NCBI GenBank assembly: GCA_022644775.1
Contig: JALCHN010000016.1
Coordinates: 1 to 38,167, forward strand
Source of the DNA: Eggerthellaceae bacterium
Lineage (GTDB): Bacteria; Actinomycetota; Coriobacteriia; Coriobacteriales; Eggerthellaceae
Direction: 5' to 3'
Length of the DNA stretch: 38,167 nt
This document shows positions 1,620-9,493 of the stretch, one piece after another. The notes beneath the pieces are model-generated. The model had not been told where the DNA came from, made no database searches, and was given only the letters and a program-made list of their open reading frames with translations. The position numbers and the translations under genes were made by a program. Positions within the stretch are counted from its first letter, which is position 1. Each line of letters starts with the position of its first letter.

Positions 1620-2459
1620 ATGAAGACACTCGGCTACTACAACGGCACCTGGGGGCCGCTCGACGAGATGACCGTGCCCATGAACGACCGCGCGAGCTGG
1701 TTCGGCGACGGCGTCTACGACGCGGGCCCGGCGCGCAACTACCATATGTTCGCGATGGACGAGCACATCGACCGCTTCTTCCGCAGCGCGGCGGCTCTGG
1801 AAATCGAGGTGCCCGTGACCAAGGCCGATCTCGCCGACCTCTTATGCGACCTCATGCGCAAGATGGACACGGGCGACCTGCTCGTCTACTTCCAGGTCAC
1901 GCGCGGCACGGCCCCGCGCAGCCACGCCTTCTGCGACGGCCCCGCCAACCTGTGGGTCACGCTCGTTCCCTACGAAATCGATGAGGGCCGTACGCCCGTG
2001 AAGCTCGTTTCGGCCGAAGACACGCGCTTCTTCCACTGCAACGTGAAGACACTGAACCTCATTCCGTCGGTCATGGCCGCCGAAGCCGCCAAGCGCGCCG
2101 GCGCCTACGAAACCGTGCTCTACCGTCCGGGCGAGCGCGTGACCGAATGCGCCCACAGCAACGTGCACATCATCGAGGACGGGGCCTTCGTCACCGCGCC
2201 CGCCGACAACCTCATCCTGCCCGGCATCGGGCGGGCACACCTGATCGCGGCGTGCGGGCGCCTGGGGATTCCCGTGCGCGAGGAGCCCTACACGCTCGAC
2301 CGCCTGCGCGCGGCCGACGAGGTGATCGTGAGCAGCTCGGGCACGCCCTGCCTGCGCGCCTGCGAGCTCGACGGGGCGCCGGTGGGCGGCAAGGCCGGCG
2401 AGCTCGTCGAGTCCCTGCGTGCGAGCGTGGTCAACGAGCTCCTGATTGCGACCGAATAG
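1620..2459 (+). CDS. dat: D-amino-acid aminotransferase-like class IV PLP enzyme
   Basis: This 279-residue protein belongs to the fold-type IV PLP aminotransferases (branched-chain aminotransferase, D-alanine aminotransferase, aminodeoxychorismate lyase). Family marks visible are the N-terminal NDRASWFGDGVYD box and CNVKTLNLIPSV, where Lys143 is the expected Schiff-base lysine. Others are the TECAHSNVHII box, LILPGIGR, and a terminal SSSGTP phosphate-binding loop. The CNVKTLN context is closest to D-alanine aminotransferases, which make D-glutamate or D-alanine for peptidoglycan. The start is the ATG with GAAAGGGAG five bases upstream; an in-frame upstream ATG is less well placed. It is divergent from uraA with a 143-bp shared promoter region. 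PabC or a branched-chain role cannot be excluded from sequence alone. Confidence 0.78.
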   Translation: MKTLGYYNGTWGPLDEMTVPMNDRASWFGDGVYDAGPARNYHMFAMDEHIDRFFRSAAALEIEVPVTKADLADLLCDLMRKMDTGDLLVYFQVTRGTAPRSHAFCDGPANLWVTLVPYEIDEGRTPVKLVSAEDTRFFHCNVKTLNLIPSVMAAEAAKRAGAYETVLYRPGERVTECAHSNVHIIEDGAFVTAPADNLILPGIGRAHLIAACGRLGIPVREEPYTLDRLRAADEVIVSSSGTPCLRACELDGAPVGGKAGELVESLRASVVNELLIATE

Positions 2460-2522
2460 CGCCGCAGGTGCTTCGCGCGGGGTGAAGGGGCGCGTCTCTT
2501 CTGCCCCGCGCCGATCGGCTCA

Positions 2523-2555
2523 GTGAGTCAAAGAGATGTGACCCCTCTGACTCAC
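2523..2555. repeat. 33-bp palindromic repeat, copy 1
   Basis: A 33-nt element with perfect 8-bp arms (GTGAGTCA at 2523-2530, TGACTCAC at 2548-2555) and a 17-nt centre with AGAGAT and GACC. Two further elements of identical length lie at 2917 and 2951. It resembles a REP-type intergenic palindrome; its function is unknown. Confidence 0.85.
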
Positions 2556-2653
2556 GCCGCCCCTTCGGCTGCTCGAAGCGCACGGGAATTGCATGCCGAA
2601 CGGGAATCGGGCGGGTGAAAACTCGTTTTGCACGGTTGATGCAGCGGAATTCT

Positions 2654-2900
2654 GAAACGACCGTGCAAAATGAGCGGAGCCGTGCAACGACCGTGCGAAA
2701 CGAGCGGGATTTCCGCGTTCGGCGTGACATTACCGTGCGAAACGAGCAGAGGGCCTCCGTGCAAGGGGGTCGACTGCGAAATCTCCTGCAACGGCCGTGC
2801 GAAGCGAGCGGAATTCTGCAACGACCGTGCAAAGCGAGCGGGAGATTGCAACGCCCGTGCATTTCGAGCGGCGACGCGCAACGACCGTGCGAAACGAGCG
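2654..2900. repeat. Array of seven ~24-bp repeats, partly in 30-bp phase
   Basis: Seven degenerate copies of GCAACGACCGTGCGAAACGA followed by GCGG start near 2654, 2684, 2727, 2788, 2818, 2848 and 2878. The last four are exactly 30 bp apart, and the first two are also 30 bp apart. A further partial copy (CTCCGTGCAAGG) lies near 2756. Each unit has a weak dyad, CCGTGCG-AAA-CGAGCGG. Units are shorter than usual CRISPR repeats and the 6-bp gaps are too short to be spacers. The array lies about 180 bp upstream of the MFS gene. It could be a protein-binding array or a decayed tandem repeat. Confidence 0.8.
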
Positions 2901-2916
2901 CCGTCCGACGTGCGGA

Positions 2917-2949
2917 GCGAGTCAGAGAGATGCGACCTCTGTGACTCGC
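2917..2949. repeat. 33-bp palindromic repeat, copy 2
   Basis: Arms GCGAGTCA (2917-2924) and TGACTCGC (2942-2949). Compared with copy 1, base 2 is C instead of T and its partner is G instead of A. This paired change keeps the stem and suggests selection on the folded or dyad form. Confidence 0.85.
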
Positions 2950-2950
2950 G

Positions 2951-2983
2951 GTGAGTCACAGAGATTTGACCCCTTTGACTCGC
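2951..2983. repeat. 33-bp palindromic repeat, copy 3
   Basis: Arms GTGAGTCA (2951-2958) and TGACTCGC (2976-2983), with one G-T wobble in the stem. It is separated from copy 2 by a single base and has the same length and central AGAGAT...GACC pattern. Confidence 0.85.
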
Positions 2984-3078
2984 AGCAGTGTCTTTACACG
3001 CTTCACACGTTCGGCCGGGCGCAAAAGCGTACAATCGGGCCTGTTGTCATGAGAGATTCGGAATAGAAGGGGGCCCGC

Positions 3079-4314
3079 ATGAAACCGCGCACCAGCCCGT
3101 TCGGCTTCATCCTGTCCTTCGGCGTCGTGAGCATGCTCATGGACGTGGTCTACCAAGCCGCGCTTTCCGTGCAAGGCCCCTTGCTCGCCTCGCTCGGCGC
3201 GAGCGCCGCCGTCGTGGGCCTGGTGAGCGGCCTGGGCGAGGCCACCTCGCTCGCCGGTCGCCTGGTGAGCGGCCCGGCCGCCGACCGCACCGGCCGCTAC
3301 TGGATCTTCGCGATCGTAGGCTACGCGATCACGGGCCTCGCGGTCCCCGCCATGGGCTTCGCCGGAAGCGTCGTGGCCGTTTCGGCCCTCATCATCTTCG
3401 AGCGCTTCGGCAAATCGCTGCGCACGCCCTCGCGCGACGCGATGATCTCGCACGCTTCGGCGAAGGTGGGCCGCGGAAAGGGCTTCGCGATCCACGAGCT
3501 CATGGACCAGATCGGCGCCTTCGCGGGCCCGCTTGTGGTGGCAGCGATCCTGCAGGCCACCCACAACTCCTTCGGCAGCGCGCTCGGTGTGATGATCGTG
3601 CCCGGCGTGGCGGCGATCGTCGTCCTGCTCGTGCTGCGCCATCGCGTGCCCAACCCGGAGGCCTACGAGGAGGAAGGCGAAGCCGAAAGCCCCGCAGCGC
3701 CCGCCGGCGCCGCGTCCGCCGGCGCCGCGCCCGCTTCGGCCGCCCCTGCCGCGCCCGCCAAGCAGCCCCGCGTCAAGCTGCCCGCCCGCTTCTGGGCCTA
3801 TACGTGCTTCTGCGGGCTCGTGCTCGCTGGCGTGGGAACCTTCGGCGTGATGTCGTTCCACATGGTCGACGCCGGCCTCATGGACGCGTCGTTCGTGCCC
3901 GTGCTCTACGCGATCGCTCAGGCGGTCGACGCCGTGTTCGCCCTGATCACGGGCAACCTCTACGACAAGTACGGGGTGAAGGTCCTCTTCGTGCTGCCCA
4001 TCGTGTCGGCCCTTGTGCCGTTGTTCGCCTTCGCGTCGTCGGTGCCGATGGTCGCCGTGGGCGTGGCCCTGTGGGGCATGAGCCTGGGCGTGCAGGAATC
4101 GACGATGCGCGCGGCCGTGGCCGACATGGTGCCGGGCGGCAAGCGCGCCACGTCCTACGGCATGTTCAGCGTGGCCACGGGCATAGGCACCTTCATCGGC
4201 GCCACGGTGATCGGCCTGCTCTACCCGCTGGGCCAGCCGGCGATCGCCGTCTACGCGGTCGCCCTGCAGGTGGCGGCCTTCGTCCTGCTCGCCTGCCTCG
4301 TGCGGCGCGCGTAG
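3079..4314 (+). CDS. Major facilitator superfamily transporter
   Basis: This 411-residue protein has two six-helix bundles of the MFS type. The first half holds a loop 2-3 motif (GRLVSGPAADRTGRYW near residue 58-75) that matches the MFS motif A pattern, and a later conserved-looking ERFGKSLRTPSRDAMI segment. The halves are joined by a hydrophilic linker around residues 197-231 that is almost only Ala, Pro, Glu and Ser, unusually low in complexity. MFS motifs recur in the second half (GNLYDKYGVKVLF). The start is an ATG with AGAAGGGGG upstream. It lies downstream of the repeat block and appears to be a single-gene unit. The substrate cannot be told; export of a drug or metabolite is a guess by family. 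Confidence 0.82.
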   Translation: MKPRTSPFGFILSFGVVSMLMDVVYQAALSVQGPLLASLGASAAVVGLVSGLGEATSLAGRLVSGPAADRTGRYWIFAIVGYAITGLAVPAMGFAGSVVAVSALIIFERFGKSLRTPSRDAMISHASAKVGRGKGFAIHELMDQIGAFAGPLVVAAILQATHNSFGSALGVMIVPGVAAIVVLLVLRHRVPNPEAYEEEGEAESPAAPAGAASAGAAPASAAPAAPAKQPRVKLPARFWAYTCFCGLVLAGVGTFGVMSFHMVDAGLMDASFVPVLYAIAQAVDAVFALITGNLYDKYGVKVLFVLPIVSALVPLFAFASSVPMVAVGVALWGMSLGVQESTMRAAVADMVPGGKRATSYGMFSVATGIGTFIGATVIGLLYPLGQPAIAVYAVALQVAAFVLLACLVRRA

Positions 4315-8900: not shown

Positions 8901-9305
8901 GAACGGCTGGGCAAGTCCGGCGTGAGCTACTTCACGATCACGGGCGCCACGCCCAAGAAGCGGCGCCTGGAGTTGGTGAACGAGTTCAACGCCAACGACG
9001 TGCCGGTGTTCCTCATCTCGCTGAAGGCGGGCGGCACGGGCCTGAACCTCACGGGCGCGTCGATGGTGATCCACGCCGACCCCTGGTGGAACGCGGCGGC
9101 CGAAAACCAGGCGACCGACCGTGCCCATCGCATCGGCCAGCAGCGCACGGTGAGCGTGTACAAGGTGATCGCGAAGGGCACGATCGAAGAGCGCATCGTC
9201 GATTTGCAGGAGCGCAAGAGCGAGCTCGCGCACACCCTGCTGGCGGGTTCGGGGGCATCGCTTGCCAAGCTTTCGACCGACGACCTGATCGCCCTGCTGT
9301 CGTAG
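5958..9305 (+). CDS. SWIM zinc-finger SNF2-family helicase
   Basis: This 1115-residue protein is a SNF2/Rad54-type DNA translocase with an N-terminal SWIM finger. The SWIM motif is C78-x-C80-x9-C90-x-H92. The helicase part begins near residue 640. It shows Walker A (DEMGLGKS, Lys677), DEAQ (771-774), LTGTPVENR, VFSQFTSFL, SLKAGGTGLNLTGA, and motif VI (ATDRAHRIGQQRTV). The protein would couple ATP hydrolysis to movement on duplex DNA; bacterial members are linked to transcription recycling (RapA) or to repair and genome defence, and which applies here is unknown. A Ser/Tyr/Gly low-complexity stretch lies at about residues 224-238. The ATG has GGAAAGGAAG upstream at a rather long distance. It is flanked by a hairpin on the left and a palindrome cluster on the right, so it looks monocistronic. 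Confidence 0.93.
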   Translation: MISARELRNNCRTATYQRGRDIADRPSCIIAPVAEETQVRGVRRLRLAARMRGTDPGDVYETEVFIDPVEGEILDYDCTCPASDNFSGMCKHAVGLVMRYNDAPRSFRDASGARARQTSGALSLIMDRTSAGPRQAQANVDLDMQLSYYFDQWKLQFKIAGPKGSYVLKNIGDFLDHMRAGDYVSYGKKLAFTHVPGNLTPRARKIWRFLDAAVEARRELAPLASSSYSYGYSYGYSNPVRVGREMQLANAELLDLFEIFEGEQIEIVDEEQAIEAQGAYLMRTGRSRGRLARDMDRVAVTVREGKPDLGISIAATDGGFEVGAPEPARIVSDGQRLALWRGDTLWLCPPSFASARKVLEALYGGDGALFVSTADAPRFAATVLPLFEDVLGAQAPEELDALKPVPCELAFYLDRTRTAVVCDARAVYGGQSFHVLAPITREDAHVRDPEQEAVGAEAVRSYFSEFAVPKGEAGRTVGTIAIDDADAIGNLLFGGLAAFREAGQVYTTPAFDKLLFDGHPTVQTGLSISGDLINLDISADELDPEEVARILDSYRLRRRYHRLKNGAFLNVGDMDLAQLDRLSSDLGLSGRQLGAGEVELPLYEAFYLKDRLPGADRDASFTAYLDRFDEERAKKRVPPVSLASVLRPYQVEGFAWLSLLASCGFGGILADEMGLGKSVQLISWLVSCADEAHEPSLIVCPASLVYNWAAEFERFAPQMRVAALVGAKAHRAAERARAAAGEVDVMITSYDILRIDVEDFAKMKLFSCTLDEAQYIKNQSTKVAKAAKRVRAEHRFALTGTPVENRPSELWSIFDFLMPGLLGSAMHFRERFEIPVLGNDEEAQKSLQALVGPFILRRLKANVLTDLPDKMESRVYAQMTGPQAKAYQASEQHLRDALNAQKRESASRSHEPGSNEMSKVQVLAQLTRLRQLCLDPALVFENYKGGAAKLDTIVDLVGEGIESGQKILVFSQFTSFLKRIAERLGKSGVSYFTITGATPKKRRLELVNEFNANDVPVFLISLKAGGTGLNLTGASMVIHADPWWNAAAENQATDRAHRIGQQRTVSVYKVIAKGTIEERIVDLQERKSELAHTLLAGSGASLAKLSTDDLIALLS

Positions 9306-9307
9306 CG

Positions 9308-9418
9308 TGTGCCACACCCCCGTGTGTCACACCCCGGGGGTTTGGCACACGCGACCGACGACCTTGTGCCACACCCCGGGGGTTTGGCACATGTGCCAAG
9401 CCCCGGGGGTGTGGCACA
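9308..9418. repeat. Cluster of 27-bp palindromes (two direct, one inverted, one half copy)
   Basis: Three 27-nt units lie at 9323-9349, 9365-9391 and 9392-9418, plus a half unit at 9308-9322. Each has TGTGCCA-type arms around a CCCCGGGGG centre. The second and third units are in opposite orientation and abut each other. The cluster starts three bases after the helicase stop codon. It could act as a transcription end or be a mobile REP/MITE-like family. It is unrelated in sequence to the 33-bp elements at 2.5-3.0 kb. Confidence 0.82.
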
Positions 9419-9421
9419 CGC

Positions 9422-9493
9422 GATGCGGGCGCGGCCGACCTCATCGGCGTGGGGCGGGCGATGCTGAAGGACCCCGCCTCGTGGGGCGCATAG
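9422..9493 (+). pseudogene. C-terminal remnant of an NADH:flavin oxidoreductase-like gene
   Basis: A short open stretch ending in TAG encodes a 23-residue tail including ADLIGVGRAMLKDPASW. This closely resembles the C-terminal FMN-phosphate region of old-yellow-enzyme / NADH:flavin oxidoreductases (typically ADLIGVGRALLADPDW). No start codon or upstream body of such a gene is present; the palindrome cluster lies directly before it. I read it as the residue of a deletion. The match is from memory of the family, not a search. Confidence 0.5.

Follow-up and report, generated by a model that had tools for sequence, protein, structure and literature searches.

A dispersed intergenic element with putative protein-binding units in two genomes of the genus Hugonella

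Results

The array in the window

The window, namely the whole stretch of 38,167 nucleotides analysed here, carries a class IV aminotransferase gene and an MFS transporter gene separated by an intergenic stretch (2460-3078) that contains an array of short sites and several palindromes, arranged as follows.

1620-2459, plus strand: class IV aminotransferase gene, upstream of the array (Pfam PF01063)
2525-2553, no strand: 29-bp palindrome of a separate dispersed family (blastn and palindrome scan; none by chance)
2569-2905, plus strand: whole element, window copy (profile match at 2569-2750; blastn matches to other copies)
2571-2584, minus strand: inverted site U1', outermost left (weight matrix and core matches)
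2594-2606, no strand: conserved block TGCCGAACGGGAA (alignment of copies), inverted partner of the 2711-2725 block, the arms not covarying
2621-2634, minus strand: inverted site U2' (weight matrix)
2662-2675, plus strand: direct site U1 (repeat search and weight matrix)
2692-2705, plus strand: direct site U2 (repeat search and weight matrix)
2711-2725, no strand: conserved block TTCCGCGTTCGGCGT (alignment of copies)
2734-2747, plus strand: direct site U3 (alignment and weight matrix)
2796-2809, plus strand: direct site U4 (repeat search and weight matrix)
2826-2839, plus strand: direct site U5 (repeat search and weight matrix)
2856-2869, plus strand: direct site U6, tail (repeat search and weight matrix)
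2886-2899, plus strand: direct site U7, tail (repeat search and weight matrix)
2919-2947, no strand: 29-bp palindrome, separate family (repeat search and palindrome scan; none by chance)
2953-2981, no strand: 29-bp palindrome, separate family (repeat search and palindrome scan; none by chance)
3079-4314, plus strand: MFS transporter gene, downstream of the array (Pfam PF07690)

A repeat search of the window located, at 2651-2899, seven direct 25-nt repeats spaced by 30, 42, 62, 30, 30 and 30 bp, and TRF reported 2786-2900 with a period of 30 and 3.8 copies. The seven repeats described in an earlier note are real and far above chance, the intergenic stretch holding nine core matches (at most one mismatch, both strands) against a mean of 0.32 and a maximum of 3 in 2000 first-order Markov shuffles. 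The array contains seven exact occurrences of CCNTGCN5GAGC and the rest of the plus strand of the 38-kb window contains three; the weight matrix, built from 145 sites, scored above 8 bits only twice in 34 kb of the window outside the array. Two inverted units upstream, with 14-bp cores at 2571-2584 and 2621-2634, had been overlooked, and the window copy comprises nine sites (2571-2899), two inverted and seven direct. A simple scan of positions 2400-3150 detected neither a sigma-70-like promoter nor a terminator.

The palindromes that were said to bracket the array also exist, with a length of 29 bp, but do not belong to it: only 4 of the 26 array loci have a GAGTCA palindrome within 500 bp, and further members of that family are dispersed independently, the bracketing being a coincidence of the window locus. 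The sequence of the window palindromes, which are imperfect, is GAGTCANAGAGATNTGACCCCTNTGACTC, and their own genome contains over 20 additional short matches. Two other repeats were observed. One is a cluster with TGTGCCACACCCC / GGGGTGTGGCACA arms at 9302-9433 of the window, which lies where a long ORF ends and extends past it. The other, a third repeat family of palindromic form (GTGACAACGGGGGCGCG..TTGTCAC), fills intergenic gaps of the source genome (L320, L321, L024, L023), including loci that carry an array in the congener Hugonella massiliensis, and also flanks array fragments.

Copies and distribution

Searches by blastn with the window array returned repeated matches in the source genome (G000) and in H. 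massiliensis (G001), and none in the other 39 relatives. Full or near-full copies numbered 11 and 12, respectively, in addition to fragments. Of 119 family genomes scanned with a head profile, four gave matches, strong ones only in the two of the genus Hugonella; no convincing copy emerged from the profile scan of the other 117, the weak matches in G007 and G008 (E about 1e-3) being treated as chance. The profile added two partial H. massiliensis copies (C9:941807 and C9:1358051) which, like degenerate remnants in the source genome (C34:17048-17121, C36:9836 and C20:11678), stand outside the 23. Exact CNTGCRAAACGAGC gave 30 and 21 matches in the two Hugonella genomes and its reversed-pattern control gave none. 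The earlier note would have been refuted by unphased copies at random places; the other copies are instead phased arrays, and exact CNTGCRAAACGAGC cores are almost confined to them.

No match was detected in 50,697 phage or 72,556 plasmid records. A looser TGCGNNNCGAGC pair pattern occurred in 20 of 138 family genomes, outside the genus at about the control rate, and a tandem-core pattern gave, among the matches listed, mostly scattered single matches in both wider genome contigs and viral contigs; the richest of the listed matches outside, in Neolewinella (L099), was rejected as an unrelated tandem repeat. An Eggerthella-type array of TGCGCGTCGAGC units (L351, L370, L373 [G113:C9:142782-142909] and L097) has a similar skeleton with one 30-bp step at a single locus. 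No description of the element was found in the open-licence PMC text on Hugonella and Eggerthella repeats, and the available part of the Hugonella genome paper mentions no such repeat (PMC5552949). The element is confined, so far as seen, to the two Hugonella-genus genomes.

A nearly fixed head and a variable tail

Alignment of the 23 copies (11 from the source genome and 12 from H. massiliensis) and the weight matrix yielded the site consensus TG-N6-CC-N-TGC-R-N3-Y-GAGC-R-G, with CCNTGCNNNNNGAGC as core letters and TG upstream. The unit is not palindromic, and a copy consists of two inverted sites followed by direct ones; the head spacing is nearly fixed (50-41-30-42-61-30 bp) and is succeeded by a variable tail of 30/31-bp units. 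The two inverted sites stand 50 bp apart at the start of 22 of the 23 copies, only one being scored in C47, and the direct sites follow in steps of 41, 30, 42, 61 and 30 bp with few exceptions: C17 stops after the second direct site, C7 is without the 61-bp gap, 1344 has 41 instead of 42, and the 61-bp gap measures 60 in C7 of G001 and in 350 and 62 in the window copy and in 507. Each copy has 6 to 13 weight-matrix sites, a few extra calls at 13-25 bp from a neighbour being probably spurious. The outermost sites are inverted relative to each other, with a right end that varies with tail length, and none of the 23 copies contains a called gene. Indels in the head were rare: all head pairs together showed 131 gap openings and 14222 substitutions (0.9 per 100), whereas the two htpG flanks had 4 openings for 91 substitutions and 2 for 43.

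The exact 30-bp phase noted before holds for the four tail units of the window, whereas in the full set of copies the tail units follow one another at 30 or 31 bp. Such steps amount to 2.86-2.95 turns at 10.5 bp, so that successive sites drift by about 20-50 degrees; binding to one face of the helix, as suggested from the window, would therefore be approximate and not exact.

Genomic context

All copies are intergenic. Neighbour genes taken from coding-score calls placed the 26 array loci, which include orthologous pairs, in 10 convergent and 13 tandem gaps, none in divergent gaps (0 of 23 scorable loci) and three at contig ends; in these convergent and tandem gaps the same element adjoins many unrelated genes. 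GC skew along the array strand was positive at 17 of 25 loci, with no firm strand bias, and on contig 9 of H. massiliensis 11 of 13 first-strand profile matches lay on the minus strand.

This context bears on the two local roles suggested in the earlier note, an operator for the MFS gene or an iteron-like cluster serving a replicon. The window array does lie 173 bp upstream of the MFS gene, but over 20 unrelated loci, 10 convergent ones among them, carry the element too, and the operator was rejected. The iteron origin fared no better, given 23 copies, aminotransferase and MFS genes as neighbours of the window copy with no rep gene, dnaA on contigs in which no array was found, and no plasmid or phage match. 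We find either role scarcely credible.

Conserved cores and turnover between species

Four orthologous loci were compared between the two species; wherever one or both of the nearest flanking proteins were comparable, identity was 88-99.5%. Core letters differed by 3.3-8.2% and other array letters by 11-46%, namely 9/110 vs 50/253, 5/66 vs 53/176, 8/99 vs 106/232 and, at the paaK locus, 4/121 vs 31/273 (p<0.012 at each locus), with a core chosen from all copies and to that extent circular. When head columns were instead chosen from copies outside each pair, and for two pairs also outside the subfamily, the counts were 5/79 vs 25/105, 6/78 vs 39/106, 2/62 vs 57/122 and, at paaK, 0/58 vs 7/126 (p=0.10, not significant), summing to 13/277 vs 128/459 with three of four pairs significant. 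Against constraint at the paaK locus, non-core array letters changed more than the upstream flank (31/273 vs 20/433). Given the low core divergence and the rarity of gap openings, unit letters and spacing are evidently held and linkers are not.

Among 11 loci comparable between the species, four have arrays in both (C16/047, C22/433, C29/084 and C6/122), one has a full array in the source genome and a partial one in H. massiliensis (C1a/1358), and another a full array in H. massiliensis and a single unit in the source genome (402/C36). The remaining five have an array in one species only (C47, C1b and C7 in the source genome; 539 and 1319 in H. massiliensis), hence those copies are not essential in both. 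The H. massiliensis copies 047, 539 and 1319 group with C6/122 on short branches (support 100), a subfamily that has evidently spread recently. The earlier note would also have been refuted by a lack of the array in close relatives. The congener does have an array at the locus orthologous to that of the window copy, but this copy (047) is of the C6/122 subfamily, implying that the array there was replaced, converted or independently inserted.

The different subfamily at that locus, together with an array of which the other species has just one unit, could point to a neutral repeat whose similarity is due only to recent duplication and gene conversion. We consider this very improbable, because cores change several-fold less than other letters, yet conversion would preserve the linkers too.

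Absence of base-pair covariation

The head folds strongly in single copies and its profile matches on both strands owing to the inverted arrangement, as might be expected of a structured RNA in which inverted units pair with direct ones in a transcript. In the pairing written out, however, 76.3% of cells pair vs 75.7% in shuffles, and the covariation score of 0.124 (0.122 in shuffles) was reached by 201 of 500 shuffles. For two alternative pairings the observed score was reached by 114/500 and 311/500 shuffles, the former with a somewhat high number of cells changed on both sides (25/500). Sliding the partner strongly lowered pairing, a drop that reflects no more than the inverted-repeat nature of the arms. 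Variable columns thus lacked compensation in all three pairings, the RNAalifold covariation term was not favourable and Rfam gave no match. A structured RNA was rejected for want of compensatory base changes and seems to us improbable; absence of covariation makes the units read as sites for a protein on duplex DNA.

Interpretation

The window array is one copy of a dispersed, intergenic, non-coding element. Its near-fixed spacing, the conservation of cores at old loci and the lack of a pairing constraint suggest, with a probability that we put at about 0.55, that the units are sites at which a protein binds duplex DNA, and that they act where they stand. Each unit would be a binding site contacted about one turn apart at TG, then CCNTGC, then GAGC; several molecules would sit on almost one side of the helix, in a single nucleoprotein complex whose geometry the head spacing would set. 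We infer all that is said here of binding from sequence. Of the cluster of sites envisaged in the earlier note, sites for a structuring protein fit (conserved cores and spacings, free linkers, no covariation), and the MFS operator does not. This role in place, argued from old copies that keep their cores at their original loci, may lie, on the model put forward for BIMEs, in nucleoid docking or DNA topology on the downstream side of genes. A second property would be spread by copying or conversion, as indicated by the presence/absence differences and the recent burst.

Such spread could also mark a non-autonomous, MITE-like mobile element comparable to BrickBuilt, with units as transposase or recombinase sites, outer inverted units as terminal inverted repeats and the tail as a minisatellite. 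This possible, if rather unlikely, explanation accords with the mutual inversion of the outermost sites, the recent subfamily spread in H. massiliensis (047, 539 and 1319 with C6/122) and the orthologous loci without an array. It is weakened by the lack of a called gene in any of the 23 copies, of a target-site duplication evident by eye at the 23 ends (flanks of empty loci being too diverged) and of an autonomous relative or transposase candidate among the matches listed; Mu-transpos_C (Mu/Tn7-type) gave 0 matches, with an equally silent control. Moreover, intact cores in old orthologous copies would be unexpected of dead MITEs. Each genome has a single Y1-transposase (RAYT-like) gene (L323 1290-2300 and L324 1000-2060), flanked by other palindromes, namely GACGACGGGGACGGAGGGTGTCGTC in H. 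massiliensis and CTGACAAAT..TTTGTCAG in the source genome. No array unit was seen by eye beside this gene in either genome, and it was rejected as mobiliser, being single-copy and flanked by those other repeats.

We may speculate, with considerable doubt, on a genus-specific chromosome-organising system, in which a putative DNA-binding protein would assemble into a complex of several subunits, with a set geometry, on the dozen or so heads of each genome, tail units tuning its strength and sites moving between intergenic gaps over evolution. Dispersed repeats are common in bacteria, and letters and spacings under selection are rarely visible in them. Here, 23 copies from two genomes, with near-fixed spacing and a clear core, could allow the putative binder to be fished with one bait, and in a gut bacterium available in culture one can test whether repeats of this kind benefit their host cell or just themselves.

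Comparison with known repeats

Pneumococcal BOX elements have a modular boxA-boxB-boxC layout and are known for RNA hairpins, and the BIME/REP clusters of E. coli prefer convergent and tandem gaps, the two kinds in which the scorable Hugonella loci lie. Unlike BOX, the Hugonella element is without covariation; it differs from BIME/REP clusters in a non-palindromic unit, in the dominance of direct units over alternating orientation, in its about 12 copies vs over 100 and in showing no link to the RAYT-like gene of its genome. Like BOX, to judge from the accessible part of the source (PMC3049150), it is a modular repeat dispersed through intergenic DNA whose internal units vary in number, and it shares with BIME/REP clusters, which contain gyrase or IHF sites, the nature of extragenic arrays of sites, as far as the available text goes (PMC2817692, PMC6379681). 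The BrickBuilt MITE of Porphyromonas gingivalis, in the portion available, is described as species-restricted and always intergenic, with 19 copies per genome, each made of a leader, 23-nt units in tandem and a tail that has small inverted ends, and no internal transposase (PMC4596501). Measured against that partial description, the Hugonella element is likewise dispersed, intergenic and without coding sequence, but its head is built of inverted and direct unit copies at fixed spacing, variable linkers lie between its units, and neither a target duplication nor a parent IS was found for it. By analogy, we regard BrickBuilt as the nearest described kind and BIMEs as the nearest functional picture, and the element looks like a genus-restricted, BrickBuilt/BIME-like new relative of the known scattered repeats.
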